From contig OMIC01000002.1 of the NCBI GenBank assembly GCA_900298995.1, forward strand, positions 1 through 64,000: a DNA stretch of 64,000 nucleotides, written 5' to 3'. This document shows, in pieces, positions 11,799-27,806 of the stretch. Position 1 is the stretch's first letter, and each line of letters begins with the position of its first letter. The translations under genes and the position numbers were made by a program. The notes beneath the pieces are model-generated. The model did not search any database. It had not been told where the DNA came from and worked only from the letters and a program-made list of their open reading frames with translations. The DNA is from Hyphomicrobiaceae bacterium. Its GTDB lineage: Bacteria > Pseudomonadota > Alphaproteobacteria > Rhizobiales > Aestuariivirgaceae.

Positions 11799-12388
11799 TG
11801 CTTTGCCCCCCAGCCATAAGCCTCGATGCGGAAGGAGGCCCGCAGCGCCTCGGCCGGAAAGGCATCCGCCTCCGTGACAGCCGCCTGTGGACGCAGTTCG
11901 AGGCCGGACACGAACATGACAGGAAGGCTTGCCTCAATATCCACGAGGAAATCACGCATCTGCGTGATGCTGCCCTCTGCATCCATGCCGAGCCGGAACG
12001 GGGTCTTGCCCTCTGCATCACCCGTCTCGAGACCCTGAATGCGGACCACCGTGAGGCCGCTTCGGGCCGCGGACTCGCCCACGCGTTCCTGAAAGGCAGC
12101 CAGCATAAGCCCTGGCGTGGCGCCGGTGAGGAACATCTGCTCGACACCATCACCGGCGCGGAGACGCAAGCCGCCTTCCTGGGCTTTTCGGGCCGCACGG
12201 GCGGCAATGAGATCGTACTCGGCCTGTTGCGCCGTGATGCGCTCCCCGATCGCCCCGTGCCAGGCAAAGAGACCGGCTGCAAGGCCGAGGACCACCAGCA
12301 GCAACAGGGCGAGAATGACAGCACCCTTGCGTGCAGCAGGCGGAAGTCCGACAGCAAAGGAAAGGGCGCTGGGGCGTGATGTGCTCAT
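11795..12388 (-). CDS. gspM: Type II secretion protein GspM
   Basis: A 197-aa bitopic membrane protein with an N-terminal transmembrane segment (about residues 20-42), a short coiled-coil-like stretch and a ferredoxin-like periplasmic domain. It fits the GspM subtype b family that partners GspL in the inner-membrane platform. Four-base overlaps (ATGA) on both sides, with gspL upstream and the GspC-like gene downstream, indicate translational coupling. The assignment rests on topology, position and general sequence character. Confidence 0.78.
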   Translation of the reverse strand: MSTSRPSALSFAVGLPPAARKGAVILALLLLVVLGLAAGLFAWHGAIGERITAQQAEYDLIAARAARKAQEGGLRLRAGDGVEQMFLTGATPGLMLAAFQERVGESAARSGLTVVRIQGLETGDAEGKTPFRLGMDAEGSITQMRDFLVDIEASLPVMFVSGLELRPQAAVTEADAFPAEALRASFRIEAYGWGAKQ

Positions 12389-13467
12389 GGCGACGCTGCT
12401 CCCGCTGCCGCCGGTTCCAGTCGTGCGGTGAGTGCAAAGGCATTGGACTGGCTGTCGGTTTCGCGCTCCGTCGCCGAGGCGAAATTCACTTCACTGAAGA
12501 GAGGCGAGGCCTCGAGTATGGCGATCAGAGAAGGAATGTCGCTGCCGCGACCCTTCATCTCCAGCTTGTCGCCGCTGAGCACCAGAGCGTCCAGGTAAAC
12601 AGTATCTGGCAGAACGGCTGAAAGTTCGTTGAGCACCGCCACGGCAGGAGAGCGCACACGGCGCGCCTGCAGCATGGTGTTGGCTGAGGCCACCAGCGGT
12701 GTCTCGCCCTGTCCGCCTCCCTCGCCGCGCAGGCTGGCGGTGATCGCCGCCGTGTCGGCTTCCAGCCGCCACAATGCCGAGGATGAGCGGTAGATCATGG
12801 CAAGACCGGCGACCGCGGCGCAGACGAGCACAACCGCTACGATCCGTGCCAGACGGCCCGCCCTGAGCCGCGCTGTGCGGCGTACGTCCTCGCCACCAAA
12901 ATCAATGGCGATTTCCTGTCCGTCCGGGAGGCGCACACTGAGCGCCCGAACGGCCGCACCTGCGGCCTGCAGACGGTTGACGAACTCGACGAGCAGCGCG
13001 CGGCTCAGAACCGCCACATCGACGACGACCTGCCGGCCATCACCCGTGGCAGGCTTGACGCGCATGCCCCACAGGCACTGCGCCAGTGGCCATGGCGCCA
13101 GACCCTCGACTTTGTTGCGGATGATGGCACGCAACACATCGGGCGGCTGAGCAGGCAGGGTGATTTGCCGGGTGACCGCCTGATCGGCGGCCAGTTCCAG
13201 CGCCATATCGGCTCCGGGGCGGCCCGACAGGCTGGCACAGACCGTGCGCAGCGCATCGGCCGGCCGGCCCGTGGCGGTGATCAGGGGTTTGGCGGGGTCG
13301 GCCACCGCCCAGACTTCGATGCCAGACGCGCGCAGCCGCAGCGTCAGGGGAGGCCGGCCGGTCGCAACGCGGCGCTGGGCGAGCTCCTCGGCGAGCGCCA
13401 GGACGGGATCCCGCACGCTCGCCCACAGGCTGGCGGCCGTCCTGGTGATGGTCGCATCACGCTTCAT
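12385..13467 (-). CDS. gspL: Type II secretion protein GspL
   Basis: A 360-aa platform protein: a cytoplasmic actin-like/PilM-like region (about 30-200), a transmembrane segment (about 222-242) and a periplasmic PilN-like domain (about 250-350) with the pattern VRSPAVAVLNELSAVLPDT common to PilN/GspL. It links the GspE ATPase to GspM. The ATG at 13467 follows the gspK stop by 19 bases; a longer frame to 13626 would overlap gspK and adds an unrelated basic leader, so it is rejected. Confidence 0.82.
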   Translation of the reverse strand: MKRDATITRTAASLWASVRDPVLALAEELAQRRVATGRPPLTLRLRASGIEVWAVADPAKPLITATGRPADALRTVCASLSGRPGADMALELAADQAVTRQITLPAQPPDVLRAIIRNKVEGLAPWPLAQCLWGMRVKPATGDGRQVVVDVAVLSRALLVEFVNRLQAAGAAVRALSVRLPDGQEIAIDFGGEDVRRTARLRAGRLARIVAVVLVCAAVAGLAMIYRSSSALWRLEADTAAITASLRGEGGGQGETPLVASANTMLQARRVRSPAVAVLNELSAVLPDTVYLDALVLSGDKLEMKGRGSDIPSLIAILEASPLFSEVNFASATERETDSQSNAFALTARLEPAAAGAASP

Positions 13468-13486
13468 CAGAAAGCGTTCCTTGCCT

Positions 13487-14446
13487 TCATTCGCCCCAGA
13501 CCGCAAGGGTGTGGAACGGCAACACCGCCTCGGAAATCTGAACGGCTGCTCGTGACCGGCTTCCAGGCAGGAGGTCGGCGCCGTCCTCGATCTCGACATC
13601 AATGATGAAGACCGTGGGCTCGGCAACGCTCAGATACTGTTTCAGCCGTTCGATGATCTGCTGCAGTCGCGGATCGTCAGGCGGCTTGCGGTTCTTGCGC
13701 ATGTCCGCGAAGACCGCGAGGTCATTGGGGGTGATGCCGGGGACGACCGCCAGCACCTCGCGCGGCGCGGCCAGCGGATTGATCTTGTCGGAGGGCGAGA
13801 ACACCGTCAGCCCGGCCGTGAAGGCCTGCGCAGTCGCCGACTCGAGGCTGACCAGCTCGCCAATCTGGTCAACCGCGAGGAAGATCAGGGGCTGTGCGGG
13901 AACTTTCGGCTGTGGCTCCCCGGTAGGTGCAGGCGGCACCGGAGCGCCCCCAACCTGAGCCGGCGGCGTGCCAGGACCCGGCTGCTTGCCCGCAGGGTCA
14001 GGGGCGGACTGCTTTGGCTTCGCCTGTTCACGTAGCGTTTCAATCCGCGCTGCCAGACCATCCACCGCAGGGTCGTCGAGGCCGGAAAGGCGTGCCAGCG
14101 TTTCAATCAATTCGGGATCGCTTCGGTTGAGGTCGATGAGACCCGCCGCATCACGGATCGCCACCGTGACGGACTGGCCCTCCCCCACCTGCAGACGCAG
14201 CGGTTCGCCATAGAAATAGGCACGCTGACCAGCCGGTGTGGTGAGAATCAGAGCCTTGGCGGCCTCAAGCCCTGATCGCAGGGCAAAATGCGTCGCGAGG
14301 CGGCGCTGCTCCAGTTGCTCGCTGCCAATGCCAGCACGCGTCAGAGACGTGGCGGCAACCACCATCACCGACATGACAGCCACCGCCAGGAGCACGGCCA
14401 GAAGAATGACGCCGCGCTCGCCATTCCGTGCCGCACGGGGGCTCAT
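13487..14446 (-). CDS. gspK: Type II secretion minor pseudopilin GspK
   Basis: A 319-aa minor pseudopilin. The prepilin-like N-terminus (RNGERGVILLAVLLAVAVM) shows the Gly at the cleavage site, but Glu5 of classic pilins is replaced by a hydrophobic residue, as is usual in GspK. A large globular part follows, with helix-hairpin-helix-like sequence (about 180-290) interrupted by a Pro-rich insertion (about nt 13900-14000). GspK caps the pseudopilus tip with GspI and GspJ. It overlaps gspJ by four bases (ATGA). Confidence 0.9.
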   Translation of the reverse strand: MSPRAARNGERGVILLAVLLAVAVMSVMVVAATSLTRAGIGSEQLEQRRLATHFALRSGLEAAKALILTTPAGQRAYFYGEPLRLQVGEGQSVTVAIRDAAGLIDLNRSDPELIETLARLSGLDDPAVDGLAARIETLREQAKPKQSAPDPAGKQPGPGTPPAQVGGAPVPPAPTGEPQPKVPAQPLIFLAVDQIGELVSLESATAQAFTAGLTVFSPSDKINPLAAPREVLAVVPGITPNDLAVFADMRKNRKPPDDPRLQQIIERLKQYLSVAEPTVFIIDVEIEDGADLLPGSRSRAAVQISEAVLPFHTLAVWGE

Positions 14447-15138
14447 TGCGTGGCCTCCGCAGCGGGGACTGCGCCGCAGGGAGGCGTGGGATTGACCACG
14501 CAGTCAAGTGCCGCGTCAACGCGGAGCGGCTGCACGAAGCCCGGAACGACAAGACCACCCGACCCGGCATCGGCAATCGTCAGCCGGATCTGCTCCGGCA
14601 TGGTCTGGCTGGCCACCCAGTTGTCACTCCAGTCGCGCGCGCCCGAGCGCTGGGCGCGGTAGGCAAAGGCAATGCTGTAGGGACCCGACAGCAGCACCAC
14701 GGGATCAAGCCACTGCTGTATGCCCTCGTTGCGCGCGCCCAGTCCCAGAGGTGCACGCTCCCGGACGAGTTGGGTTTCGCCGCCTTCATCGCGGATGCTG
14801 AGCCGGACCAGATAGAGACCCGGTGAAGCAAGTCCGCTCTCCTCGCGCAGCGGATAGATCAGGGAGTCGGCGCGGCCTTCGAAAACATAGCCGGTGAAAC
14901 GATCACTCCCCGGGCGGCGAATCTTGGCAATACGCGCCACGTCGCGGCCAAAGACATCAATGACCCCCGCCACGACTTCCTGCCGTCCGAGGCTCGACCG
15001 TGTGCGGTCAACACCCTTGCCGATCGCCGTCATGGCGAGATTGAGCGAGACGAGAATCAATGAGGCCAGAACCAGCGCCGCCAGAACCTCCAGAAGTGTG
15101 AAGCCGTTTTCATGATGGGGTGGCCTGCGGGAATCCAT
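14443..15138 (-). CDS. gspJ: Type II secretion minor pseudopilin GspJ
   Basis: A 231-aa protein with a type IV prepilin leader: a short basic leader, then GFTLLEVLAALVLASL with Glu at +5, a long hydrophobic helix and a beta-rich C-terminal domain. It belongs to the tip complex of the pseudopilus. It starts one base after the gspI stop codon and overlaps gspK downstream. Confidence 0.9.
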   Translation of the reverse strand: MDSRRPPHHENGFTLLEVLAALVLASLILVSLNLAMTAIGKGVDRTRSSLGRQEVVAGVIDVFGRDVARIAKIRRPGSDRFTGYVFEGRADSLIYPLREESGLASPGLYLVRLSIRDEGGETQLVRERAPLGLGARNEGIQQWLDPVVLLSGPYSIAFAYRAQRSGARDWSDNWVASQTMPEQIRLTIADAGSGGLVVPGFVQPLRVDAALDCVVNPTPPCGAVPAAEATQ

Positions 15139-15139
15139 C

Positions 15140-15520
15140 TTACTGGCCGATCTTCAATACATTCGCCGACATCTGTCCGGAGGACGGCCAGGTCACGGTC
15201 GCCGTCAGCCGGTAGGCGAGATGCGGGGGCGTCAGAGCGGGCACCATGGCTTCCGGTGTGATGACGAGCCGCCATTTGTAGCCCTGCGATTCGCCCTCGC
15301 GCTGATCGGGAACAGTGCTCTCAGCAGACAGTTCGTCTTCAAGAATAGTCTGCAGGAGGATACGCGCCCCGAGATGCCTGTCGAGAGCTGCGGTACCGCG
15401 AAGCGATCCGTTGATACCGCCGGTCAGCACAACGATGGCGCTTGCTGCAATCGCCACGGCGCAGAGCACTTCCACCAGAGAAAATCCACGCTCACGGCCG
15501 CACTCAGAGGGCTTGTGCAT
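15140..15520 (-). CDS. gspI: Type II secretion minor pseudopilin GspI
   Basis: A 126-aa minor pseudopilin with the leader motif GFSLVEVLCAVAIA (cleavage after Gly, Glu at +5) and a short globular domain. GspI usually nucleates the tip complex. Its start overlaps the end of gspH by 17 bases. Confidence 0.9.
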   Translation of the reverse strand: MHKPSECGRERGFSLVEVLCAVAIAASAIVVLTGGINGSLRGTAALDRHLGARILLQTILEDELSAESTVPDQREGESQGYKWRLVITPEAMVPALTPPHLAYRLTATVTWPSSGQMSANVLKIGQ

Positions 15521-15956
15521 TGGTCCGTCCTGTCAGCCAGTTGATGCGCAGTTCATAGCTGCGGCCGCGGAACTGGAAGGCCAGAACACCGCCCGATGAG
15601 CCCCCGGACGGGAAGAAGCGCACCCCCGGGCTGCCGGCGCCGTCCGGTTTGGCGATGCGGGCATCCAGCACGATGCCCGGCGGCACATCGAGCACCTGCT
15701 CACGCGCCGGGAAGCTGAGCGTGCGCGCCTCGGTGTCAATCAGCACCTCGGTCTCCGTCTGGTCCTCGATGGCAGCTGTCCGGGCGTCGCGGAACATGGT
15801 CTCGGCATGAAGCAGGAAGGCACGGACCCGGGCCGACTCCGCGCTGCTCCGGCCGGAGGAAACAACTGCTGTCGCGAGCAGACCCATGAGCGTCAGCACC
15901 ACCAGCAGCTCGAGCAGCGTGAAGCCTCGCTGTGCGTCAGCGCGCGATGTCGGCAT
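15504..15956 (-). CDS. gspH: Type II secretion minor pseudopilin GspH
   Basis: A 150-aa pseudopilin with the leader motif GFTLLELLVVLTLMGLLA and a C-terminal beta domain. GspH joins the tip complex to the GspG shaft. The ATG at 15956 puts ten residues before the cleavage-site Gly, as in homologues. The frame stays open to 16337, but that part only mirrors gspG in another frame. It overlaps gspG by 20 bases. Confidence 0.88.
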   Translation of the reverse strand: MPTSRADAQRGFTLLELLVVLTLMGLLATAVVSSGRSSAESARVRAFLLHAETMFRDARTAAIEDQTETEVLIDTEARTLSFPAREQVLDVPPGIVLDARIAKPDGAGSPGVRFFPSGGSSGGVLAFQFRGRSYELRINWLTGRTNAQAL

Positions 15957-16392
15957 CCTCGTCCGATCCGCCTTCCTTGCCGTCCGCGCCAAAGGACTTG
16001 ATGGTGAAGGCGGCGCCATTCTGGCCACCTTCATAGATGTAAGGACGTCCCCACGGGTCCTGGGGCAGTTCGCCCTTGGTGAGATAGGGGCCATTCCAGC
16101 CGGGAATGTTGCCGGCAGGCTTGACCAGCACCTGCAAGCCCTCGGAGGACGTCGGGAAGCGTCCGACATCGATGTGGAACAGCTCCATGGCGGTGACGAG
16201 GCTTTCGATCTGGACCTGCGCGGTCTTGGCGCGGGAACTGCCGAGATAGCCGATGACTCGCGGGCCAATGATGCTGGCCAGCAGCACCAGAATGACCAAC
16301 ACGACGAGCAGTTCGACCAGCGTGAAGCCTGCCTCACCGTCCGGCTTGCGGCGGAGCGTCATGGGCGTCTTTCGAAGGTGAAGAAGAGTCAT
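15937..16392 (-). CDS. gspG: Type II secretion major pseudopilin GspG
   Basis: A 151-aa major pseudopilin, the building block of the periplasmic pseudopilus. The leader GFTLVELLVVLVILVLLA, the PRV turn after the helix, and the C-terminal segments GWNGPYL and DPWGRPY (calcium-site region) are diagnostic of GspG. The ATG at 16392 has an AGGA site six bases upstream; an ATG ten codons in (16362) is possible, but its upstream site is weak. Confidence 0.95.
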   Translation of the reverse strand: MTLLHLRKTPMTLRRKPDGEAGFTLVELLVVLVILVLLASIIGPRVIGYLGSSRAKTAQVQIESLVTAMELFHIDVGRFPTSSEGLQVLVKPAGNIPGWNGPYLTKGELPQDPWGRPYIYEGGQNGAAFTIKSFGADGKEGGSDEDADIAR

Positions 16393-16419
16393 GCGAGATA
16401 TCCTGTTGAAGCCTGTCGT

Positions 16420-17631
16420 TCAGATAGCCAGATCATTGATGCTGATCACCGCGCCCATGAGGGACGTGATGATGAATCCCACGAACACACTGAGACCAAG
16501 GATGATGATCGGGCCCAGCAACGCCACGGTGCGATCGGTCAGACGGTCAAGTTCGTCCTCGAGAATGTCTGTCACCCGCAGGATGCTGGGCGTGAGATTT
16601 CCGGTCTCGGCGCCGACCTTGATCATGCGGGCCAAAAGCGGCGGAAGAATGCCTGATTTCTCGAGAGGTGCGATGAAATCCTCGCCACGGCGCAGCGCAA
16701 CCTCCATGTCGTCCGCCGCCGCGCGGAGGCGCCGGTTTGGCGTTGTGGCGGCAATGAGCTTCAGGCTGGCCGGCAGGGTCATGCCTGCCGCCGAGAGGGC
16801 ACCGAGAACGCGGCAGAACTGCGTAACCTCGGACTTTATGATCACCTTGCCCAGGATCGGCAAGCGCTGCGCGGCCTCGCGCAACAGACGGGGCGCGGCG
16901 GTGCGGGTCCATAACAGGGCGAGAAGCAGAAGGCCGAACGCCAGGGCGGCAGCCACCGTCAGGCCGTTGGCGGTCAGCCAGTCCGATACCGCGATAACGG
17001 CACGCGCGGTCTCCGGCACGGGTGCACCGCTGCTGGTGATCATGTCCTTGATTCCCGGCACCACGGCCAGCATCAGGAAGATCACCACACCCAGCGACAG
17101 GACAACCAGCATCACGGGATAGATCAGGGCCGAGATCACCTTGCCCCTGACCTTCTGTTCCCGTTCGCGAGCCGTGGCCAGACGGTCGAGCGACTGGGCA
17201 AGCGTTCCCGTGGCCTCGCCGACCTCGACCATGCTGAGATAAAAGGGGGGAAACGCGGCGGTCGAAGCCAGGGCATCATGAAAGCTGCGACCCTTGCGGA
17301 TGTCGGACTGGGCATCGGCCAGCAGGCGCGACAGCGGCTTGGAAAACGTCTCGCGCCCGAGGATATCGAGCGCGCGGTTGAGCGTGGATCCAGCCTGCAG
17401 CAGCCAGGCCAGCTGACGGGTGAAGGCAGTGATCTCCGGACCGGCGATGCGCCGGCCCGGAAGGCTGAGAACCGGTGCTGAGCCAGCGGTCTGGCTGTCT
17501 TCCTCGATGTCGATGGGGTGCAGGCCCTGATCCGACAGGCGGCTGATGGCCAGTGACCGGTCCACTCCCTCGATGACGCCTGAGACCTCTTCGCCACTGT
17601 CCCTGATCGCGCGGTATCGGAAGCTTGCCAT
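16420..17631 (-). CDS. gspF: Type II secretion platform protein GspF
   Basis: A 403-aa polytopic inner-membrane protein with the two T2SSF domains (about residues 70-195 and 275-395) and three transmembrane segments near 170-190, 220-245 and 370-395. The first domain contains FTRQLAWLLQAG, a standard GspF/PilC signature. The ATG at 17631 shares one base with the gspE stop (TGATG), giving coupled translation; a frame running 19 codons further up overlaps gspE and is rejected. Confidence 0.93.
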   Translation of the reverse strand: MASFRYRAIRDSGEEVSGVIEGVDRSLAISRLSDQGLHPIDIEEDSQTAGSAPVLSLPGRRIAGPEITAFTRQLAWLLQAGSTLNRALDILGRETFSKPLSRLLADAQSDIRKGRSFHDALASTAAFPPFYLSMVEVGEATGTLAQSLDRLATAREREQKVRGKVISALIYPVMLVVLSLGVVIFLMLAVVPGIKDMITSSGAPVPETARAVIAVSDWLTANGLTVAAALAFGLLLLALLWTRTAAPRLLREAAQRLPILGKVIIKSEVTQFCRVLGALSAAGMTLPASLKLIAATTPNRRLRAAADDMEVALRRGEDFIAPLEKSGILPPLLARMIKVGAETGNLTPSILRVTDILEDELDRLTDRTVALLGPIIILGLSVFVGFIITSLMGAVISINDLAI

Positions 17632-19319
17632 CAATCCTCCGACGTGACCCGTCCGAGTTCTTCGATGGTGGTGACGCCGTTGCGGCACTTGCGGAAGCCA
17701 TCGGCCAGCATGCTGCCGACACCCGCCCGCCGCGCAGCCTGGGCGATGACGTCCGCAGAGACGCCGGGCTTGATCAGGCGCCGCAATTCATCGTCAATGG
17801 CCAGAACCTCGAAGATCGCCGCGCGTCCTGCAAAGCCCGTGCCTCCGCAATAGGTGCAGCCAACAGGCCGGTACAGTGTCACCCCGTCGCTGCCGGCTGG
17901 TAACGCCGCCTCCGGGAACTGCGCCAGCAACTCGCGCGATGCCTCATAGGGTTCTCGGCAATGGCTGCACAGTCGGCGCACCAGCCGCTGAGCCACTACA
18001 CACCGCAGCGTGGAAGCGATGAGATAGGCCTGAATGCCCAGATCGAGAAGGCGCACGATGGCTCCGGCGGCCGAATTCGTGTGAAGCGTGGTCAGCACAA
18101 GGTGGCCCGTGAGGGCCGCGTTGACGCCGATGCTGGCGGTCTCGCCGTCACGCATCTCACCCACCATGATGATGTCGGGATCAAAGCGCAGTAGCGAGCG
18201 CAGCGTACGTGCGAAAGACAGTCCGATGTCCGGATGCACCTGAACCTGGTTGACGCCCTCGATCTGATATTCGACCGGATCCTCGATGGTGACGATCTTG
18301 CGGCGCGGATCGTTCAGAACCCCCAGCGCGGCGGCGAGCGTGGTGGTCTTGCCGCTGCCGGTGGGGCCGGTGACGATGATCATGCCGTGGGCATGTCCAA
18401 TCTCATGGCGGAGCCTGGCAAGATCCTGAGGCGACAGACCGAGCCTGTCGATATCCGGAGCCTGGGTGTTGGCGCTCAGAAAGCGGATGGCGATGCTTTC
18501 GCCATGAATGGTGGGCATGGTCGCCACGCGGATGTCGTAGTCCCGCTCGGCAATCTTGAGCCGCGCGCGGCCATCCTGCGGAAGGCGCTTTTCAGCGATA
18601 TTGAGATTGGTCAGGATCTTGAGCCGCGAGACCGCCGCCCGGCCCAGTTCCGGGGCCAGGCGTTCGCGCTCCTCGAGCATGCCGTCAACCCTGTGCCGGA
18701 CGATGACCGCTCCACGGGCAGGCTCGATATGGAGGTCGGTCGCGCGGGCTGCCGAGGCTTCGCGGAACAAGCGGTTGACCAGGTCGATCACCGGAGCATC
18801 TAGCGCCAGATCCTTCAGGGCCTCTTCATCCTCGCCTCCAGCGGCGGGCCGTGGCAAGAGGCTGCCCTGTGACCGGCCATCGTCGAGCCGTTCGATGGCG
18901 GACAGGATCTGATTGTCGGTTGCAACCGCGAGGGAAAGCTCCATGCCGGTCGCCAGACGCAGGGCCGCAAGCGCGTTCTCATCGCTGGGATCGCTGACAA
19001 TGACGCTGAGAACTCCGTTCTCGGCGGCGGTGGGCAGCACATGGCGCTCACGCATGAAACGCAGCGAAATGGCATCCGGCAGGACGCGGCCCGAAGGCCA
19101 CCGGGACGCCATGGGCAGGCCGTGCAGACGCGCCAGTTCAAAGGCCAGAACCTGCTGATCCAGACTGCCTTGGCGCAGGAGGAGCCGGGCATCCGTCTCC
19201 TGCCCGGCAGAGGCAAGACCGCGAATCTGTTCCGCCTGATCCTTGGAGATCAGGGCCCGATCGGTCAGGTCGTTGAGAAGACTGCTCACAGCTGACTGTT
19301 TACCCGAAACCGGCCGCAC
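17631..19319 (-). CDS. gspE: Type II secretion ATPase GspE
   Basis: A 562-aa hexameric ATPase that powers pseudopilus assembly from the cytoplasm. It has the N1E domain (about 10-140), the linker with APVIDLVN, Walker A GPTGSGKTTT (about 318-327), the Asp box IEDPVEY, Walker B DPDIIMVGEMRD, the His box LTTLHTN, and the four-Cys zinc motif LCSHC...CTYC near 455-500. The start is a GTG at 19319; a second GTG ten codons inside (19289) is possible, and neither has a strong binding site. It is the first gsp gene of the operon and lies 60 bases downstream of a co-oriented SpoIIE-type phosphatase gene. Confidence 0.94.
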   Translation of the reverse strand: MRPVSGKQSAVSSLLNDLTDRALISKDQAEQIRGLASAGQETDARLLLRQGSLDQQVLAFELARLHGLPMASRWPSGRVLPDAISLRFMRERHVLPTAAENGVLSVIVSDPSDENALAALRLATGMELSLAVATDNQILSAIERLDDGRSQGSLLPRPAAGGEDEEALKDLALDAPVIDLVNRLFREASAARATDLHIEPARGAVIVRHRVDGMLEERERLAPELGRAAVSRLKILTNLNIAEKRLPQDGRARLKIAERDYDIRVATMPTIHGESIAIRFLSANTQAPDIDRLGLSPQDLARLRHEIGHAHGMIIVTGPTGSGKTTTLAAALGVLNDPRRKIVTIEDPVEYQIEGVNQVQVHPDIGLSFARTLRSLLRFDPDIIMVGEMRDGETASIGVNAALTGHLVLTTLHTNSAAGAIVRLLDLGIQAYLIASTLRCVVAQRLVRRLCSHCREPYEASRELLAQFPEAALPAGSDGVTLYRPVGCTYCGGTGFAGRAAIFEVLAIDDELRRLIKPGVSADVIAQAARRAGVGSMLADGFRKCRNGVTTIEELGRVTSED

Positions 19320-19379: not shown

Positions 19380-20261
19380 TCAGAAGGCGATGGTCAGCAG
19401 AGAGAAATCATCCGGCAGGGGGCCCGGGCCGTTGATGGACCGCACCCAGTCCAGCACCTCCGCAGGACTGGAACTCGTGCTCAGCCGCCCGACGAACGTG
19501 TCGAAGGCCAGCATCTCGCCCGGCGCGGTTTCAACCTCGAAGGTGCCGTCACTCACCAGATGCAGACGGTCACCGGAGGCCACCTCGCTGTGGGCGGTTC
19601 TGTACAGCATGTCCGGCATCATCCCGATGGCAATGCCCGGCGTGGCGAGCGTCAGCACACGGCCATCCACCTTGCGCAGGACAGAAGCCGGGTGACCGGC
19701 GCTCGCATAGCGCAGGGCGCCCGTGCTGCGCCGATAGACGCCGTACCAGATGGTGAAATACATATTATTCTGTTTTTCCATCGGGAAGGCGTCGTTGAGC
19801 GCCGAGAGCACAGCTCCCGGGTCACGGAAGTCGGTGTTGGGAAGGGCGGCCGATCGCAGTACATTGATGGCCGTCACGGAGAGCAGCGCAGCACCCACAC
19901 CATGGCCGCAGACATCGAGGAGATAAACCGCGAGGTGGTCGTCATCGATCTCGTGATAGCCGAAACTGTCACCGCCCAATTCCGTCGAGGGCTCGAGCAG
20001 CCACTCGGTCCGCGGTGCCTCCTGGCGGGGCGCTGGCAGGATCGAGAAGATGTAGTTGGCGGCTTCCGTCAGCTCTTCTGTCAGGCGCTTCTGGGTGCGC
20101 TGCAGTTCCAGATTGCTCTCGGCGAGTTGGTCTTCGACCGCCTCGCCGTGTTCGATCGTCGCCTGGTAGAGCAGATTGAGGTCTTCGAATTCGGCCTGCA
20201 TGCGGGCCAGCTCTGCTTCCACCTCAGCCAGCCGGCTTTCAAGATCTGACATGCCGCCCAC
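19380..20261 (-). CDS. SpoIIE-type PP2C serine phosphatase (RsbU-like)
   Basis: A 293-aa soluble protein: residues about 5-70 form a Glu/Leu-rich coiled coil and residues about 85-293 a PP2C/SpoIIE domain. Metal-binding aspartates are seen in LGGDSFGYHEID and LLDVCGHG, and later in VSDGTFEVE and LPDDFSLL. In partner-switching systems such phosphatases dephosphorylate a STAS antagonist. The next two upstream genes encode a STAS protein and an RsbW-like kinase, so the whole set is present. No sensor domain is visible apart from the coiled coil, which may take signals through a partner. It lies just upstream of gspE on the same strand. Confidence 0.88.
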   Translation of the reverse strand: MGGMSDLESRLAEVEAELARMQAEFEDLNLLYQATIEHGEAVEDQLAESNLELQRTQKRLTEELTEAANYIFSILPAPRQEAPRTEWLLEPSTELGGDSFGYHEIDDDHLAVYLLDVCGHGVGAALLSVTAINVLRSAALPNTDFRDPGAVLSALNDAFPMEKQNNMYFTIWYGVYRRSTGALRYASAGHPASVLRKVDGRVLTLATPGIAIGMMPDMLYRTAHSEVASGDRLHLVSDGTFEVETAPGEMLAFDTFVGRLSTSSSPAEVLDWVRSINGPGPLPDDFSLLTIAF

Positions 20262-20310
20262 CGTTTCCCCTAGTCATGGGCGAAAGCCTGCCGCGGCATG
20301 CCGCCGCTCC

Positions 20311-20652
20311 TCACTTGCCGAGGGATGCGATGGCCGCTTCGACGCTGGCGTGAAGACCGAAGATGTTGTCGAAGCCGCTCACGGCCAGCACCTCCTTCAC
20401 ATTGTTTCGGGCGCAGGCAATGGTGAGGCCTCCGCCTGCCGCCTTGGCCTTCTTCGCCGTCGTCAGGATGACGCGCAGACCGGCGGACGAGATGTAGTCC
20501 AGTTCCGATGCATCAACCACCACCAGCTTGGGGCCGGCATCGACCAGCGCACTGGCGTCGTCTTCGAAGGCCTTCGCATTGCTGCTGTCGATGCGGCGCG
20601 ACGGCTTGAGGACCAGCGCGTTGCCCAGTATCTCATGAGGAAGGTTTGCCAC
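20311..20652 (-). CDS. STAS-domain anti-sigma-factor antagonist
   Basis: A 113-aa single STAS domain like SpoIIAA/RsbV. The phosphorylatable serine lies in the conserved DASELDYISSAGLRVI segment (ISSAG, about residues 54-58). It should be phosphorylated by the neighbouring RsbW-like kinase and dephosphorylated by the SpoIIE-type enzyme encoded downstream. The bound output partner is not known: no sigma factor gene lies nearby. Confidence 0.9.
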   Translation of the reverse strand: MANLPHEILGNALVLKPSRRIDSSNAKAFEDDASALVDAGPKLVVVDASELDYISSAGLRVILTTAKKAKAAGGGLTIACARNNVKEVLAVSGFDNIFGLHASVEAAIASLGK

Positions 20653-20678
20653 TTGTTCAGTCTCCCAGCTAGGGCGGC

Positions 20679-21101
20679 CTAGGCCGCTTTCAATTTCATT
20701 TCCATGGTGATGCGGTTGACACCGTCCGTGCGCCTGTAGTCAAGCCGGTCCAGGACGTTTTTCACGATTTTGAGCCCGAGTCCGCCTATGGCCCGGTCCG
20801 CCACGTCGCCGGATGGCTCGGTCGGCTCAGCGGTGAGTGGGTCGAAGGGCGGGCCATTGTCGGCGAGTTCCGCGCGCAACCTGCCCTCGTCGTGTTCAAT
20901 GGACAGGGTGATCACTCCGTCCGGGCGGCCGACGAGGCCATAAGACACGATGTTGGTGATCAGTTCATCCAGAACCAGGCCGAAGCGCAGCGCCTCACCC
21001 GGCGAAATGCCCTGAGCGGCACCAAACTCCTCCAGTGTGTCAATGACACGCCCGACCTCCTGGATGTCATTCGCCAGCGACATGTCAAGTCGGCCGTTCA
21101 A
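20679..21101 (-). CDS. RsbW-like ATP-binding serine kinase / anti-sigma factor
   Basis: A 140-aa HATPase_c protein with an intact N box (LDELITN, Mg-binding Asn) and G2 box (GGLGLKIVKNVLD). It fits the SpoIIAB/RsbW family that phosphorylates STAS proteins or binds a target. I place the start at a TTG (21101) because AAGGGG lies six bases upstream; a TTG at 21161 would add 20 residues unlike the family. First gene of the minus-strand run kinase, STAS, phosphatase, then gspE. Confidence 0.85.
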   Translation of the reverse strand: MNGRLDMSLANDIQEVGRVIDTLEEFGAAQGISPGEALRFGLVLDELITNIVSYGLVGRPDGVITLSIEHDEGRLRAELADNGPPFDPLTAEPTEPSGDVADRAIGGLGLKIVKNVLDRLDYRRTDGVNRITMEMKLKAA

Positions 21102-21107
21102 GAAACA

Positions 21108-21113
21108 CCCCTT
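21108..21113 (-). promoter_or_regulatory. Ribosome binding site for the RsbW-like gene (TTG start)
   Basis: AAGGGG on the minus strand, six bases before the TTG at 21101. It decides between this start and a TTG 60 bases further upstream. Confidence 0.5.
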
Positions 21114-21290
21114 CGAATGCGCACGCGGCGCGGCACCCGGAACCAAAGCACAGTCACTCAAGTCCGCGCAACCATGGATAAACTCCCGGACTGAAGAAAA
21201 CAGTGTACCGCTCTACCGCAAAATCCGGTAAAGCGTTTCCAGTGCGGTTTCGCGCCGCGTCGTCATCATCTGCTTTTGTGGGGCTATATC

Positions 21291-21941
21291 ATGCTGACTG
21301 TTCCGGAGGAGTTTCTCCTGCTCACGCTCAAGGACGAGGATGGCGGCTTTGTCGACATTCCTCTCGAATACCAGCGTGCCGGCTTCGTGGGTGCGGCAAT
21401 CATGGAACTGGCGCTTCAGGGACGTCTCGACAGCGACCTCGATCGCGCATGGGTTGTAAATAAGGCGCCGACGGGCGATGCCTCGCTTGACCCGGTCCTT
21501 GCGAAGCTGGGGGCTGCGGGTTTTGACAACAACGCCGAAAACCTCATCAATCAACTTATTGAGCTTGGCGACACGGTGCGCACGGCCGCCCTCGAGCGGC
21601 TCTGCGCCAAGAAGATCCTTGTCGAAACCGAAGGCCGCCTGCTGTGGTTCCTCAAGACACGGCGCTATCCGGCCATCGACGGCAAGGAAATCCGTGAAGT
21701 GAAGCTGCGGCTCCTCGAAGTGCTGCTGCGTGACGCCCTGCCCGATCCGCGCGATGTGTGCCTGATGTCGCTGGCCGAGACCTGTGGGATCATCCGCCAG
21801 ATCGTGCCGCAGTCAGAACTCAAGCTGGCGCGGGAGCGCATCGCCAAGTTCTCGAAGATGGAACTCATCGGCCAGAACGTGAACCGCTATATCGAGCTTT
21901 TCGAACGCGCCATGGCCATGGCGACCCCCGCCCACATGTGA
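21291..21941 (+). CDS. GOLPH3/GPP34-family protein
   Basis: A 216-aa protein that fits the Golgi phosphoprotein 3 (GPP34) family: N-terminal LTVPEEFLLLTL, the LALQGRLD segment, and an alpha-helical remainder with the KTRRYPAIDGKEIREVKLRL stretch split by conserved Arg residues. In eukaryotes GOLPH3 binds phosphatidylinositol-4-phosphate and sorts Golgi enzymes; the bacterial versions, best known in actinobacteria, have no settled role but are thought to bind membranes peripherally. It is divergent from the RsbW-like gene, and its start region shares the 21102-21290 intergenic space with it. The ATG at 21291 gives the family N-terminus. Confidence 0.8.
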   Translation: MLTVPEEFLLLTLKDEDGGFVDIPLEYQRAGFVGAAIMELALQGRLDSDLDRAWVVNKAPTGDASLDPVLAKLGAAGFDNNAENLINQLIELGDTVRTAALERLCAKKILVETEGRLLWFLKTRRYPAIDGKEIREVKLRLLEVLLRDALPDPRDVCLMSLAETCGIIRQIVPQSELKLARERIAKFSKMELIGQNVNRYIELFERAMAMATPAHM

Positions 21942-22871: not shown

Positions 22872-23363
22872 ATGAGTGGCATGAAACCCCTGCTGGAAGT
22901 GTCCATGGGCATCGACGCATTCTCGTCCGCGTGGGCGCATTGTGACAGAATTTCCTCCTATGTCGCCCGCATGGTGAGCCACAACCGTGCAGACCCCCTG
23001 CTCTATGCCAATCTGCTGAGCTCGGCTCTCAACGAATTGCTTGAAATTGCCTTTGCCCATCACGGGCCGGACGGTGACATTTCCTGCCGTGTGTCGAGGT
23101 CAGGTGCGTCCGACATCATCGAATTGAGCCTGCCCTGTGACGATGCTGCGCTGGGTTTCTACACCGGTGCGGCGGAGCAGCTGAAGCGCGCCGATCTCGC
23201 AGAGGCCTATCAATCGGCGCTGTTCTCGCCCGGGGCTGGCGACCCGCATCTGGGCCTGCTCGAGATTGCCGTGGATTACAAGGCAAGGATCAGCATTTTG
23301 CCCGAGGGCGGAAAACGGGTGCTGGTGGCGGCCACCGTAGAGCTCGAAGGAGCAGTGTCTTGA
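22872..23363 (+). CDS. Degenerate slr1658-type ATPase-like regulator (probably inactive)
   Basis: A 163-aa protein that lines up with the intact ATPase-like protein at 26902-27447. The N-box equivalent is NELLEI (about 54-59), so the Mg-binding Asn is replaced by Ile, and the G-box equivalent is HLGLL (about 126-130) in place of GLGLL. ATP binding and kinase activity are therefore unlikely; it may act as a pure binding protein. It overlaps the STAS-methyltransferase gene by four bases (TTGA-type junction), which suggests that the two products form a pair. First gene of a five-gene plus-strand operon. The family call comes from the paralogue comparison and is moderately sure. Confidence 0.7.
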   Translation: MSGMKPLLEVSMGIDAFSSAWAHCDRISSYVARMVSHNRADPLLYANLLSSALNELLEIAFAHHGPDGDISCRVSRSGASDIIELSLPCDDAALGFYTGAAEQLKRADLAEAYQSALFSPGAGDPHLGLLEIAVDYKARISILPEGGKRVLVAATVELEGAVS

Positions 23364-24529
23364 GCGTCGACCCGACATATTCAGTCACGTTCAACGAGAA
23401 CAATCAGGAATTCAGCATCGCGGGCAAGCTGCGCCCTCAGAATGCCTCCGACATCAAGCCGCTCGAAGCAGCACTTTCGAAGGCGCTCGCTGGCGTGCGC
23501 GGCACATTCTATCTCAATGTGAAGCGGCTGGCACGCATCAACAACGTCGCTTTCCGTGTCATCGCCAGTCTGATGGCGCAGATGGTTGAGAAGCGCGTCG
23601 ACCTCAAGATCGAGGTTGTGACCTCCAGCGTCCTTGGCTGGTCGACACGCAAGTTCCTGCCACTTGCCCAGCGCATCCCGAATATCAAGGTCGTCGAATA
23701 CGACAAGGAGTTCTATCCGGGTCAGTCCTTTCTCGAGGAGGGTGGCTTCATTCCCATTCTGCGCAATCAGACGCGCATGACGTGGCGCCACGAGCGCAAC
23801 CTGCTGCCACGTCATGGATTGACGCCAGGCGCGAGCATCGCCGACATCTGCTGCGGAATCGGTGATTTTGCCGTGCTGGCGCACAAGGAGTTCAAGCCAT
23901 CACGACTTCTCGCGCTCGATCATTCCCGCACAAGCCTCGACTATGCGCGCAAGGTTGCTGCCGAGTTCGGTGTGACTGATATTGAATATGTCTATGGCGA
24001 CGCCGCCGAACTGATGATCGATGACAACAGCTTCGATTTCGTGACATGCCGGCATTCGCTGCAGGTCTTCGACCGGCCGGAGTTGATCCTCCGAGAACTC
24101 TACCGGATCTGTAAGCCGGGTGGCCGCGTCTACATCACCAACGAGAAGAACTCCCATTGCCTCGGCGAGCCGCGCGGCGAGAGCATCCAATGGACCTACA
24201 ACGAGGTTGCAAAGCTCTGGGCCCATTTCAACATGGATATCGAGTTCGGTCCGAAGAGCGGGCGCTACATGATGGACGCCGGCTTCGACGACATCCGGAT
24301 CGATACATTCATGGTGACCAACCGCGACGGCGACCCGCAGGACTTCGCGGACATGATCCAGGCCTGGGAGAATGTCTACGCAGGCCAGATGTCGCGCGAT
24401 CGGGGTGATACGCCAGAGTTCATCGCGAAGTTCCGACAAGGCTTTCAGGATCACATCCATGCGGCCCTTAACCCGAAGGGCTACGCGGGCTGGCCGATCT
24501 GGGCGGCTTCGGGGCGCAAACCGTCATGA
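23360..24529 (+). CDS. STAS-like domain fused to SAM-dependent methyltransferase
   Basis: A 389-aa fusion. Residues 1 to about 110 resemble the STAS protein at 27468-27806 (compare GWSTRKFLPLAQ with PWQSKSLPNLQ), but the position of the phospho-serine (LNSSG there) reads INNVA here (about 60-64), with no Ser or Thr. Residues about 140-300 are a class I methyltransferase: motif I ADICCGIGDFAV (about 160-171), the acidic LALDHS (about 187-192), and the later LYRICKPGGRVYIT typical of the UbiE/Methyltransf_11 group. The C-terminal 90 residues may shape the substrate site. The target is unknown. Both ends overlap neighbours by four bases, so it is embedded in the switch operon. It may be a methyltransferase switched by protein binding. 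Confidence 0.85.
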   Translation: MSVDPTYSVTFNENNQEFSIAGKLRPQNASDIKPLEAALSKALAGVRGTFYLNVKRLARINNVAFRVIASLMAQMVEKRVDLKIEVVTSSVLGWSTRKFLPLAQRIPNIKVVEYDKEFYPGQSFLEEGGFIPILRNQTRMTWRHERNLLPRHGLTPGASIADICCGIGDFAVLAHKEFKPSRLLALDHSRTSLDYARKVAAEFGVTDIEYVYGDAAELMIDDNSFDFVTCRHSLQVFDRPELILRELYRICKPGGRVYITNEKNSHCLGEPRGESIQWTYNEVAKLWAHFNMDIEFGPKSGRYMMDAGFDDIRIDTFMVTNRDGDPQDFADMIQAWENVYAGQMSRDRGDTPEFIAKFRQGFQDHIHAALNPKGYAGWPIWAASGRKPS

Positions 24530-26898
24530 CGCAGCTGCCGGACAGCGGCGCCGTGCGGAGTAGCGTACTGACCAGTTTCCGCGCGAAGTTTGTCTTTCTG
24601 ATCGGCACTGCGGTTCTGCTCTCCCTGCTGTTGAGCGGCGGCGTGGCACTGTGGAATGTCCACAAGCTGTCGCGTGACGCCTCGGCCGAAATTGAAAGCG
24701 GTCTGTCAAAGACGACGGAGGAGTATCTCACCCGCTACATCGACATGACCGCACAGCGCGCCGACATGATGTTTGCGCGCACCTTCGACCAGGTGACGAT
24801 GCTGGCGCAACTGACCCAGGGCCTCATCGACGATCCCAAACTCGACAGGGACCTCGGCGAATTCCTTGCACGCTATCCCGCATTCCAGGACAGCATGAGC
24901 TACAACGCCGAGAAGCACTGGATGCAGAACAAGGCTGGCGAGCCATCGGTGATCAGTGTGTGGGGTTATTTGCTCGACAGCGCCGGTGCCATGCGCGCCG
25001 ATGTGGCCGAGGCAGTCCGGGAAACGGGTTTCTTCGACCTTGTTGTGCCGGCGTTGATGGGGACAGGCCAGAACAAGCTGCAGATGTATTACGTGGGGCC
25101 GAAATCCGTTCCCATCATGCGCACGATGCCCTACTCCGACCAGGCCCAGACCTTCGACAAGCTCTATCCCGGACACAATGAGAGCAATTTCTGGGACTTC
25201 TTCTTTCCGGGAGTCTATGAGGCGTGGCAAGGCTGGGTGAAAAACCCCGGCATCCGGCCCGCCGATAGCGACATCACCATCGCCGCCCCCTACATCGACG
25301 CCATAACCGGTAAGCTGATCGTCAGCTATTTCCACCCGCTATACACCAAATCACGCGACGATGTTGCGGGTATGGTGGCGGTCGACATCACGCTCGAACA
25401 ACTCACTGAACTGGTGCAGGGCGTGAAGATCGCCGATACCGGCTTTGCATTTCTAGCGCAGCAGAACGGTAACGTCCTCACAGTGAACACCACTGGTGAA
25501 GCGCTCCTCGGCGTTGCCCAGGAAAGTGCCACTGGTGCCGGCGTCACGGGAATCAACCGGAGCCTGTCCAAGAGTCGTTTCAAGGATATCGCGGCGCTCA
25601 GGATGCCCGGAGCGAACGAGACCTCCATCATCCATGTCACTGTCGAGAAGGACGGCATGCCCGAGGGCCTGCTGGTGGCCATGCATCCGCTGCCCGTGAT
25701 GAATCTGTGGCAACCCAACACTGGCATCGTACCGGAACGGCTGATGCTGGGCTTCGTGGTGCCCGATCGCGAGATCTATGAACCACTCTATGCTGCTCAG
25801 GAAGAGATCGACAACGCCACGAACCGCATCGTCAAGGGAATCCTCATTTCGGTCGTTGGCTTCCTCATCGCCGTTCTGGCGGCGTCGGTCCTGCTCTCAC
25901 GTCGCTTCACTGCCGGTCTCGAAGCCCTTGCGGATGCAGCCGGGCGATTGAAGCGGTCCGACTACAACATTCAGGTTCCCGTGCGTGGCCGTGATGAAGT
26001 AGCCCAGGTGACCGCGGCATTCAATCAGATGGCGCTGGACATTCGCGGCCATACCGCAACGCTTGAGCAGCGGGTGGCGGACCGGACCCGTGAGCTCGCG
26101 TCGGCAAATGATGAGATTCAGAGTCTCTACGAAAAGCTCCGGGATGAAAACGTCCGGATGGGCGCAGAACTCGATGTTGCCCGCAGGATTCAGATGATGG
26201 TGCTGCCAAACGCCACAGATCTCAACGGAATTCCCGATCTCGAGATTGCCAGCTACGTGGAACCGGCCGACGAGGTGGGTGGCGACTATTATGACGTGCT
26301 CTATGCACCGGGCTCCGCAAAAATCGGCATCGGCGATGTCACGGGGCACGGCATTGAGAGCGGTGTGCTCATGATCATGGTGCAGTCCGTAGGTCGCGCG
26401 CTTTATGAGCGTGGCGTCGATGATCCCTGCGCCTTCCTCGAAGTCCTGAACACGGCCATCTACAAGAACGTCGAGCGCACCAGGACCGGCAAGCATCTCT
26501 CCCTCGCTTTTGTCGACTACAGTGAGGACCGACTGACCATTTCCGGACAGCACGAGGAAGCCATCGTGATCCGGAAGGATGGCACGGCGGAACGCATCGA
26601 CACTATCGACCTTGGCTTCCCGATCGGTCTCGAAGCGAACATCCAGGACTTCCTGTCATCCATCGTGCTACCTTTCTCCGAAGGCGACATGCTCCTGCTC
26701 TACACCGACGGCATCACCGAGGCGGAGAGCGAGGATGGAACGCTTTACGGCATCGAGCGGCTGATCGACTCGGCGCAACGCGTCCATCAGCGGAGCGCCG
26801 AAGAAGTGAAGACAGCCATCATCGCTGCACTCAGGGCGCATATCGGAAAACAGAAGGTCCACGACGACATCACGCTTGTCGTCGTCAAGCACAGGTGA
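24526..26898 (+). CDS. Membrane receptor phosphatase: Cache-HAMP-PP2C (SiaA-like)
   Basis: A 790-aa bitopic sensor. Transmembrane segment 1 (about 22-42) is followed by a large periplasmic dCache-type sensing region (about 45-430), segment 2 (about 437-457), a HAMP domain (to about 515), a coiled coil (about 520-548) and a PP2C/SpoIIE phosphatase domain (about 560-788). Metal-site motifs are VGGDYYDV, IGDVTGHG, YTDGITEAE and HDDITLVVV. It resembles SiaA of Pseudomonas, which dephosphorylates a partner regulator after periplasmic signal sensing. It overlaps the methyltransferase fusion by four bases, and the intact kinase-like gene follows after three bases, so it probably serves the STAS proteins on both sides. 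Confidence 0.9.
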   Translation: MTQLPDSGAVRSSVLTSFRAKFVFLIGTAVLLSLLLSGGVALWNVHKLSRDASAEIESGLSKTTEEYLTRYIDMTAQRADMMFARTFDQVTMLAQLTQGLIDDPKLDRDLGEFLARYPAFQDSMSYNAEKHWMQNKAGEPSVISVWGYLLDSAGAMRADVAEAVRETGFFDLVVPALMGTGQNKLQMYYVGPKSVPIMRTMPYSDQAQTFDKLYPGHNESNFWDFFFPGVYEAWQGWVKNPGIRPADSDITIAAPYIDAITGKLIVSYFHPLYTKSRDDVAGMVAVDITLEQLTELVQGVKIADTGFAFLAQQNGNVLTVNTTGEALLGVAQESATGAGVTGINRSLSKSRFKDIAALRMPGANETSIIHVTVEKDGMPEGLLVAMHPLPVMNLWQPNTGIVPERLMLGFVVPDREIYEPLYAAQEEIDNATNRIVKGILISVVGFLIAVLAASVLLSRRFTAGLEALADAAGRLKRSDYNIQVPVRGRDEVAQVTAAFNQMALDIRGHTATLEQRVADRTRELASANDEIQSLYEKLRDENVRMGAELDVARRIQMMVLPNATDLNGIPDLEIASYVEPADEVGGDYYDVLYAPGSAKIGIGDVTGHGIESGVLMIMVQSVGRALYERGVDDPCAFLEVLNTAIYKNVERTRTGKHLSLAFVDYSEDRLTISGQHEEAIVIRKDGTAERIDTIDLGFPIGLEANIQDFLSSIVLPFSEGDMLLLYTDGITEAESEDGTLYGIERLIDSAQRVHQRSAEEVKTAIIAALRAHIGKQKVHDDITLVVVKHR

Positions 26899-26901
26899 TC
26901 C

Positions 26902-27447
26902 ATGGCCCTTGATTTTGGAGAGACCACTCACCGCAACACGCCCTCAGCCTTTTCGGTCAACATCATCCTGGCCGAGGGACCGCTCGCGGTGAGCTGGCAG
27001 CATGCGAGCGCCACTTGCGAGTTTCTTGGCGATCTCTTCGCCCATCATCACGCACAGGGTGGTGCGGACTATAATGAAGCGCGACACGCCATCATCTATC
27101 TCGTCAACGAACTGCTCGAGAACGCCATCAAGTTCCGCAACCCTGGCGACATCATGCTGCTGTGCTCTCTGGAGGATGGCAATCTTGAACTGGCAGTCTG
27201 CAATTCAACGGCACCCGCTGTTGCGGAGAAGTTCCAGTCCCTGCTCTCCGAAATCACCTCGCGGGATCCCGGTGAACTGCTGATCGAACGCATTGAGGCA
27301 AATGCCGCCGACGAGACCTCCTCGGCCTCCGGCCTTGGTCTTCTGACACTGATGAACGACTATGGCGCGCGGCTTGGCTGGACCTTCGAGCAGAACGACG
27401 GCGGCGCGATTGTACTCCGCACCTATGCTTCTCTTACTCTCAACTGA
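26902..27447 (+). CDS. slr1658-type ATP-binding regulator (intact)
   Basis: A 181-aa protein with a HATPase-like core: NELLEN (about 69-74) keeps the Mg-binding Asn and SGLGLLTLMNDYG (about 143-155) keeps the G box. It is probably the kinase or binding partner for the STAS protein encoded 20 bases downstream. The degenerate paralogue at 22872-23363 has lost both motifs. It starts three bases after the phosphatase stop codon. Confidence 0.8.
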   Translation: MALDFGETTHRNTPSAFSVNIILAEGPLAVSWQHASATCEFLGDLFAHHHAQGGADYNEARHAIIYLVNELLENAIKFRNPGDIMLLCSLEDGNLELAVCNSTAPAVAEKFQSLLSEITSRDPGELLIERIEANAADETSSASGLGLLTLMNDYGARLGWTFEQNDGGAIVLRTYASLTLN

Positions 27448-27467
27448 ATATCAAAGGTTTGCATCCG

Positions 27468-27806
27468 ATGGAAATCAAGACAGCCGAGTATAATGTCTGG
27501 ACCGAAGGCTCCACCATTCACTACGAGGGTACGCTTCGCTTGTCCGGAACAGACGCCTATCAGCCCATTCTTGACCTGATGCAGCAGGTGCTTGTCGAAA
27601 AGCCGCAAAATGTGGTGCTTGATCTGACGCAGCTCGAGTTTCTCAACAGCTCAGGCATCAATCTGCTCGCCAAGTTCACCATCGAACTCCGCAAGCATCC
27701 CGATGTTGCCATGAAGGTCCTGGGCTCCACGCGCATTCCATGGCAGTCCAAGTCCCTTCCGAACCTTCAGAAGTTGCACAAGGGCGTCGAGCTGCTGATT
27801 ACCTGA
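27468..27806 (+). CDS. slr1659-type STAS protein (intact)
   Basis: A 112-aa single STAS domain with LDLTQLEFLNSSGINLLAKF split across about 51-70; Ser61 or Ser62 in LNSSG is the expected phosphorylation site. It is the likely substrate of the adjacent phosphatase and ATP-binding protein. The ATG at 27468 is preceded by AAAGG at ten bases; a TTG three codons earlier is possible. Last gene of the operon. Confidence 0.83.
   Translation: MEIKTAEYNVWTEGSTIHYEGTLRLSGTDAYQPILDLMQQVLVEKPQNVVLDLTQLEFLNSSGINLLAKFTIELRKHPDVAMKVLGSTRIPWQSKSLPNLQKLHKGVELLIT

Follow-up and report, generated by a model that had tools for sequence, protein, structure and literature searches.

Partner switches are chiefly known as regulators of sigma factors and, lately, also of diguanylate cyclases. 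In the excerpts of PMC7647112 and PMC8457831 used here, the SiaABC, Bgr and Hsb systems follow one scheme, in which the phosphorylation of a STAS protein depends on a phosphatase and a kinase, and this protein in turn acts on an enzyme. The present analysis concerns a five-gene operon of this type (genes A to E, positions 22872-27806, + strand) in a 64,000-nucleotide stretch of contig OMIC01000002.1 (assembly GCA_900298995.1) from a Hyphomicrobiaceae bacterium; this stretch is referred to as the window, and all coordinates are positions in it. Besides an apparently live phosphatase/kinase/STAS switch, the operon carries a second, degenerate kinase/STAS pair whose STAS domain is fused to a methyltransferase.

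The closest described system is the Bgr switch of Sinorhizobium meliloti. In the same excerpts, BgrU and BgrW set the phosphorylation of BgrV, which acts on the cyclase BgrR (PMC7647112), and the BgrSTUWV partner switch as a whole modulates this cyclase (PMC8457831). On pSymB of S. meliloti 2011, a GGDEF-EAL gene (EAL, E = 9e-72; GGDEF, E = 8e-45) is followed by homologues of A, B, C, D and E in that order, and no SpoIIE phosphatase domain other than that of the C homologue was found on pSymB. This locus fits the published bgr operon, with R as the GGDEF-EAL gene, S as A, T as B, U as C, W as D and V as E, an equation that rests on gene order and count; bgrR itself is presumably the pSymB gene SMb20447. 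The bgrRSTUWV partner-switch operon was reportedly described by Baena et al. in 2019, and its coexistence with the mixed-linkage glucan (MLG) synthase BgsA is said to have been noted.

The order S-T-U-W-V is shared by the window, by S. meliloti 2011 and by 78 of 80 named loci (the best 80 of 276 relatives found by a profile scan of contigs with the B alignment); the other two are cut by contig ends, and C is split into two frames in two of the 78. The phosphatase/kinase pair acting on a STAS protein in bgrRSTUWV likewise has its counterpart in the window operon. Since gene set and order match the bgr-like locus of S. meliloti, the operon type is already known, and the window holds a variant of a described partner-switch operon. 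The bgrRSTUWV operon starts with the cyclase BgrR, whereas the window operon lacks it; the gene upstream of A is an acetolactate decarboxylase on the opposite strand.

Two further systems share parts of this arrangement. SiaABCD of Pseudomonas aeruginosa resembles the window in its PP2C receptor phosphatase, SiaB-like kinase fold and STAS-like target, and also has an enzyme as switch output (excerpts of PMC7647112 and PMC8457831). That output is a cyclase, whereas the window operon has no linked cyclase, and the Sia family models stay below their cut-offs (C, 133 of 700 bits for SiaA; D, 16 of 85 for SiaB; E, 13 of 150 for SiaC). To our knowledge, SiaABCD has no dead kinase/STAS pair. RsbK/RsbM of Bacillus cereus also ties a methyltransferase to a partner-switch cascade. 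There, the excerpt of PMC10950880 names the input kinase RsbK as the suggested target of methylation by RsbM, whereas the UbiE-like enzyme of the window is fused to a STAS domain.

The degenerate pair and its fused methyltransferase

The genes and motifs of the operon are as follows.
22872..23363, +: gene A, 163-amino-acid (aa) pseudokinase with slr1658/SiaB-like GHKL fold; fits BgrS by position
23031..23048, +: degenerate N box of A, NELLEI, residues 54-59
23247..23261, +: degenerate G box of A, HLGLL, residues 126-130
23360..24529, +: gene B, 389 aa, TTG start; fits BgrT by position
23537..23551, +: degenerate phospho-acceptor motif of B, INNVA, residues 60-64
24526..26898, +: gene C, 790 aa, Cache-HAMP-PP2C (SpoIIE) receptor phosphatase; fits BgrU
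26902..27447, +: gene D, 181 aa, slr1658 superfamily protein with kinase motifs intact; fits BgrW
27106..27123, +: intact N box of D, NELLEN, residues 69-74
27468..27806, +: gene E, 112 aa, STAS protein of the slr1659 superfamily with acceptor motif intact; fits BgrV
27642..27656, +: intact phospho-acceptor motif of E, LNSSG, residues 59-63

Genes A and B share 4 bases, as do B and C, and gaps of 3 and 20 bases separate C from D and D from E, which bears out the five-gene operon with 4-base to 20-base junctions put forward in the original prediction, a reading of the DNA letters made before this analysis. The overlaps are general: with the nearest start codon taken, A and B can share 4 bases in 60 of the 80 named loci, and B and C do so in 68 of the 78 measured. 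The motifs of that prediction (NELLEI and HLGLL in A, INNVA in B, NELLEN and GLGLL in D, LNSSG in E) also read as quoted, the G box of D being SGLGLL and intact. Joint alignments of A with D and of the B STAS domain with E place the respective motifs in the same columns, in agreement with its treatment of the two pairs as equivalent.

Both members of the second pair belong to described superfamilies, D scoring 166 bits against slr1658_superfam (NF047703) and E 140.8 bits against slr1659_superfam (NF047705), each with a cut-off of 100. The first pair matches the same two models weakly and below their cut-offs (A, 45 bits, E = 7e-12; B N-terminus, 35 bits, E = 1e-8), with E values that speak against chance similarity. 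The fold of A was modelled with AlphaFold (pLDDT 86.2, pTM 0.82) from an alignment of 12 of the 15 A sequences gathered by that point. Its best Foldseek matches in the PDB were SiaB in the SiaB-SiaC complex (6kko_A; E = 1.8e-5, TM 0.63), followed by SpoIIAB (1til; E = 1.8e-4). Because of these matches, A is predicted to have an ATPase-like fold, as originally assumed, and a fold of another kind, which would have refuted the original prediction, is contradicted.

Gene B had been described as a STAS domain, which is present (about residues 1-135); what had been missed in this 389-aa protein is a fused class I S-adenosylmethionine (SAM) methyltransferase (about residues 136-389; Pfam Methyltransf_11, E = 5e-19). 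The AF2 model of B (pLDDT 82.8) has as its top Foldseek match the methyltransferase 3mgg, whose title names no substrate, and the family and structure comparisons with relatives gave solely generic matches, with no substrate indicated. Literature searches judged on titles and the beginnings of abstracts returned nothing on BgrS/BgrT, on a STAS-methyltransferase fusion or on inactive GHKL partners, and no paper on the tags SMb20447-20452. The conserved dead pair bearing a methyltransferase is thus a feature without a match in the literature searches made.

Conservation was followed across 95 operon rows, representing 90 distinct records (L020, L022, L023, L024 and L025 are counted twice); the duplicates were taken out for the B tree and the covariation test, and D and E have 93 rows, two loci being cut by contig ends. 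In the window, C has PF07228 (E = 5e-37) and HAMP (E = 4e-10) domains, with dCache_1 (E = 3e-9) remaining below the Pfam cut-off, and its metal-Asp motifs are intact in 92-93 of the 95 rows, the remaining rows being gaps. In the SAM motif of B (ADxCCGIGDFA), the D, the first C and both G are present in 95/95 rows. Mean pairwise identity over 93 rows is 78% for the methyltransferase, 67% for E, 64% for C, 59% for the B STAS domain, 55% for D and 47% for A, making the methyltransferase the most conserved part of the operon and A its least conserved protein.

The N-box Asn is absent from A throughout, position 6 being V in 42 rows, T in 38, I in 9, L in 4 and M and A in one each, and the acceptor column of B never holds Ser (A in 29 rows, V in 27, T in 21, I in 11, L in 6 and M in 1). 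By contrast with these A and B rows (0/95), D keeps its Asn and E its Ser in 93/93 rows, as part of the N, E, E, N and K of NExxENxxKF and of LNSSGIN respectively. The rest of the B acceptor loop stays conserved (Asn61 in 95/95 rows, Ala in 92 and Phe in 93). Around the lost Asn, Glu is kept at N-box positions 2 and 5 of A in every row, and Arg replaces the N-box Lys of D in 81/95; we take the Glu at position 2 to be the catalytic base and the Asn four residues further on to be the Mg ligand, as in SpoIIAB. In the joint alignment, the first G-box Gly is found in 91/93 D rows and 6/95 A rows, the second in 92/93 and 42/95, and both are retained in 6/95 A rows. Where D has the Asn of its V-x-N motif (92/93), all 95 A rows carry F, L, I, M or V.

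The original claim that three catalytic or acceptor positions were lost together therefore stands for Asn and Ser and needs correction for the G box, given the six rows with both Gly, and for the N box as a whole, given the Glu at position 2 of NELLEx. The mapping over many genomes proposed with that claim turned up no homologue of A with the Asn and none of B with the Ser among the 95 rows, so that its other refuting condition did not arise either; Thr is the B residue in 21.

The losses appear to be ancient. In trees of A with D and of B STAS with E, built by a quick method from 32 operon rows each and two slr1658/slr1659 outgroups, a branch with support 100 sets all A sequences apart, the B STAS domains group together (100), as do the E proteins (95; the STAS tree has few columns), and the outgroups fall on the D/E side of both trees. 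Because A and B STAS each form one clade away from the outgroups, the simplest account has the Asn and the Ser each lost a single time, in the ancestor of the family. Median ratios of non-synonymous to synonymous substitution rates (dN/dS), taken over the 16-17 usable of 18 hand-picked close pairs, are 0.095 for A, 0.087 for D, 0.037 for B STAS and 0.029 for the methyltransferase; A is under purifying selection about as strong as that on D. With Asn and Ser lost in every row and selection acting on A, the dead A/B pair is old, fixed and maintained, which fits the earlier suggestion that it kept binding and dropped phospho-control.

Some records of this family have peculiarities of their own. 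The A homologue of Aminobacter aminovorans (L134, 7465-7980) is annotated as the ubiquinone biosynthesis methyltransferase UbiE, perhaps a label transferred from B. B occurs in two copies in one metagenome-assembled genome (Rhizobium sp. Q54; L036 and L039), and S. meliloti GR4 likewise has one copy on each of two plasmids (NC_019848.2 and NC_019849.2).

Linkage, distribution and the upstream cyclase

A search for A homologues covered 297 genomes from the order and 385 from the class, with 12 and 4 positives respectively, the source genome being included in both counts. The order A-B-C-D-E holds in 14/14 loci found with A in these two samples (window not counted); every locus found with B has A, and every locus found with A has B. 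With the slr1658 profile, D exceeds its cut-off in exactly the 12 genomes of the order that have A and in the same 4 genomes of the class, D without A never being seen in either sample. In the phylum sample, D exceeded the cut-off in 7/398 genomes, one of which (G719) lies outside the class. G719 and a Kovacikia plasmid carry slr1658/slr1659 pairs in the D-E order of the window, and these two loci (L147 and L135), unlike the window, gave no match to A. Such D-E pairs hint that an older switch of the C/D/E type later gained A and B. Among plasmids, 120 records gave a tblastn match to B, and 80 of these are from Sinorhizobium.

Of 88 loci (one contig counted twice), 50 have a cyclase-cluster open reading frame (GGDEF/EAL) directly upstream. 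In the tree of B, a single clade of 51 rows (support 98) contains all 49 labelled as having a cyclase, and the window lies elsewhere; as to the labels, L019 and L033-L035, marked 'none', do have PP2C2 (a stand-alone phosphatase described below), and L072, also marked 'none', carries a cyclase-cluster member of 516 aa. The clades outside the cyclase clade, window included, keep all five genes with no adjoining cyclase.

In the source genome (99.4% complete), GGDEF/EAL domains match on six contigs, with no match on the contig of the window. A probe for the N-terminus of BgrR found nothing there, but its sensitivity is limited: of the 16 genomes that bear the operon it matched 6, and the linked cyclases of G023 and G281 escaped it. 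The MLG-synthase query was chosen on pSymB by its HlyD-like neighbour and position, its identity with BgsA being our own reading. It gave no match in the source genome at E<=1e-30; among the 16 operon-bearing genomes, a 78-79% identical full-length copy is present in 3 (one with an in-frame stop), matches of 33-37% in 4 more and none in 9. With no GGDEF/EAL gene on its contig and no MLG-synthase match, the window operon likely has an output other than linked BgrR and MLG. Since the cyclase is confined to one clade, the methyltransferase is the most conserved part and the SAM and PP2C motifs are intact, an output via B is more likely than one via a cyclase alone.

A possible two-stage switch and its alternatives

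The reading favoured here, tentatively, is a two-stage partner switch, in which the live C/D/E switch would act, through the pseudokinase A, on the STAS-methyltransferase B. In the first stage, which looks live from its motifs, the receptor phosphatase C and the kinase D would set the phosphorylation of the STAS protein E, probably at Ser62. The second stage would be phospho-blind, A and B STAS retaining their fold and a large part of their interface loops without the Asn and Ser. The STAS domain of B would tether the methyltransferase, and A would bind this domain constitutively, keeping the enzyme in one state. Active C would yield unphosphorylated E, which would compete for A (or B) and thereby change the state of the methyltransferase, the output being methylation of some substrate.

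The observation behind the original prediction is thus confirmed, and its interpretation is supported in part and incomplete. The present reading departs from it where the dead pair was seen as a fixed module or a competitor, tuned by its live counterpart. The first part is not supported as written, because the methyltransferase carried by B makes the dead pair look like an output stage, and tuning by the live pair is still a matter of conjecture. In a more specific form, which has a smaller chance of being right, the dead pair would be a permanent lock on the STAS-tethered methyltransferase, opened by the live phospho-STAS protein, with the methyltransferase as the output of the switch. If so, the S. 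meliloti cyclase would be no core target but a neighbour specific to its clade, which would shift the gene counted as core output in bgr-type operons. The inactivated kinase/STAS pair joined to a methyltransferase is conserved in many Hyphomicrobiales, including the tractable model S. meliloti, and, if this reading holds, would offer a direct test of how dead kinase/substrate pairs turn into fixed wiring. The operon as a whole suggests a classic protein switch rewired to control methylation.

The sequences themselves show the gene content, the fusion, the fixed degeneracy, the purifying selection on A, the joint occurrence of A and D in the order and class samples and the lack of a linked cyclase in the window; the A-B complex, the kinase and phosphatase activities, the role of E, the direction of the effect, the substrate and methylation as the output are inferred. 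Several points weigh against the two-stage switch. Inter-protein covariation, measured by mutual information, is no stronger for A-B and D-E (top z of 7.7 and 8.0) than for the crossed pairs A-E and D-B (8.4 and 6.8), so that the tuning of the dead pair by the live one gained nothing from this comparison. Thr occupies the B acceptor in 21/95 rows, so some B proteins may be phosphorylated, and A keeps the N-box Glu in all rows and both G-box Gly in six. The reported target in S. meliloti is the cyclase BgrR and not a methyltransferase (excerpts of PMC8457831 and PMC7647112). Finally, because the probe missed the linked cyclases of two genomes, an unlinked, diverged BgrR may exist in the source genome.

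The column pair of the former Asn and Ser has z = 3.0 (rank 249 of 24,450). Over 88 rows, Thr in A goes with V, I, L or M in B in 32/33 cases, and another residue in A with A or T in B in 48/55. This link is a clade effect, independent pairs giving no support, and direct A-B contact deduced from covariation is rejected.

The alternative that survives best, though we consider it improbable on balance, is that A and B are accessories of cyclase control: the operon would regulate a diguanylate cyclase through E, A and B would fine-tune the same cyclase, and the methyltransferase would act on the cyclase or on a switch protein. The GGDEF/EAL gene upstream in more than half of the loci, the modulation of BgrR by BgrV or BgrSTUWV and the cyclases HsbD and SiaD at the end of further partner switches (excerpts of PMC7647112 and PMC8457831) all fit this, as do the unlinked GGDEF/EAL genes of the source genome, given the limited sensitivity of the BgrR probe. 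The confinement of the cyclase-labelled rows to one clade argues the other way, as other clades keep the five genes without an adjoining cyclase.

It is unlikely that A is instead a competitor for E, binding its unphosphorylated form in place of D and so setting the threshold of the live switch, with B a separate enzyme and its STAS domain merely structural. A does share the fold of STAS-binding kinases and accompanies D in 12/12 genomes, and in Mycobacterium smegmatis the RsbW homologue RsbW3 antagonises via a heterodimer with RsbW1 (excerpt of PMC10950880). However, the 4-base A/B overlap in 60/80 loci and the conserved acceptor loop of B suggest that A is paired with B.

A kinase still active via an unusual metal site, phosphorylating E or the Thr of some B proteins, has a poorer chance yet. 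The invariant N-box Glu, the Arg in place of Lys in most A rows, the six rows with both Gly and the Thr in 21 B rows are in its favour, but Asn is lost in 95/95 A rows, the first G-box Gly in 89/95 and the V-x-N Asn in all, and the B acceptor is A, V, I, L or M in 74/95. Decay of A and B into copies without function, to which the lost motifs and the low identity of A might point, has next to no probability, being contradicted by a dN/dS of about 0.1 in A, like that of D, and by the presence of A in all 12 genomes of the order sample with D.

The neighbouring switch module and other surroundings

A second, canonical-looking switch (19380-21161, - strand) adjoins the operon and consists of three genes.
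19380..20261, -: PP2C2, stand-alone PP2C phosphatase (PF07228, E = 5e-38)
20311..20652, -: STAS protein, anti-anti-sigma type (TIGR00377, 66 bits, over cut-off)
20679..21161, -: RsbW-like kinase (PF13581, HATPase_c_2, E = 2e-21)

A full-length PP2C2 homologue is found near the operon in 29 of 90 loci, 18 of which also have the STAS and RsbW-like genes, as in the window; the cyclase gene and PP2C2 never occur together in one locus. The five operon genes gave no match to a sigma factor, a search that covered these genes and left out the surroundings and the genome. A GPP34 (Golgi phosphoprotein 3 family) protein is encoded between the two switch modules (21276-21941, + strand), with a homologue in 5/80 loci. 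On the far side of the second module, and ending beside it, lies a stretch of type II secretion/type IV pilus-like genes (12385-19319, - strand), including T2SSE, T2SSF, PilN and N-methylation-motif proteins. Judged by one protein cluster, 10 of 88 loci (L041, L042, L045, L048-L051, L086, L098 and L100) have type VI secretion genes no more than 8 kb upstream of the operon, and four proteins of this region run through Pfam were assigned to TssA/ImpA, VipA, VipB and TssF.

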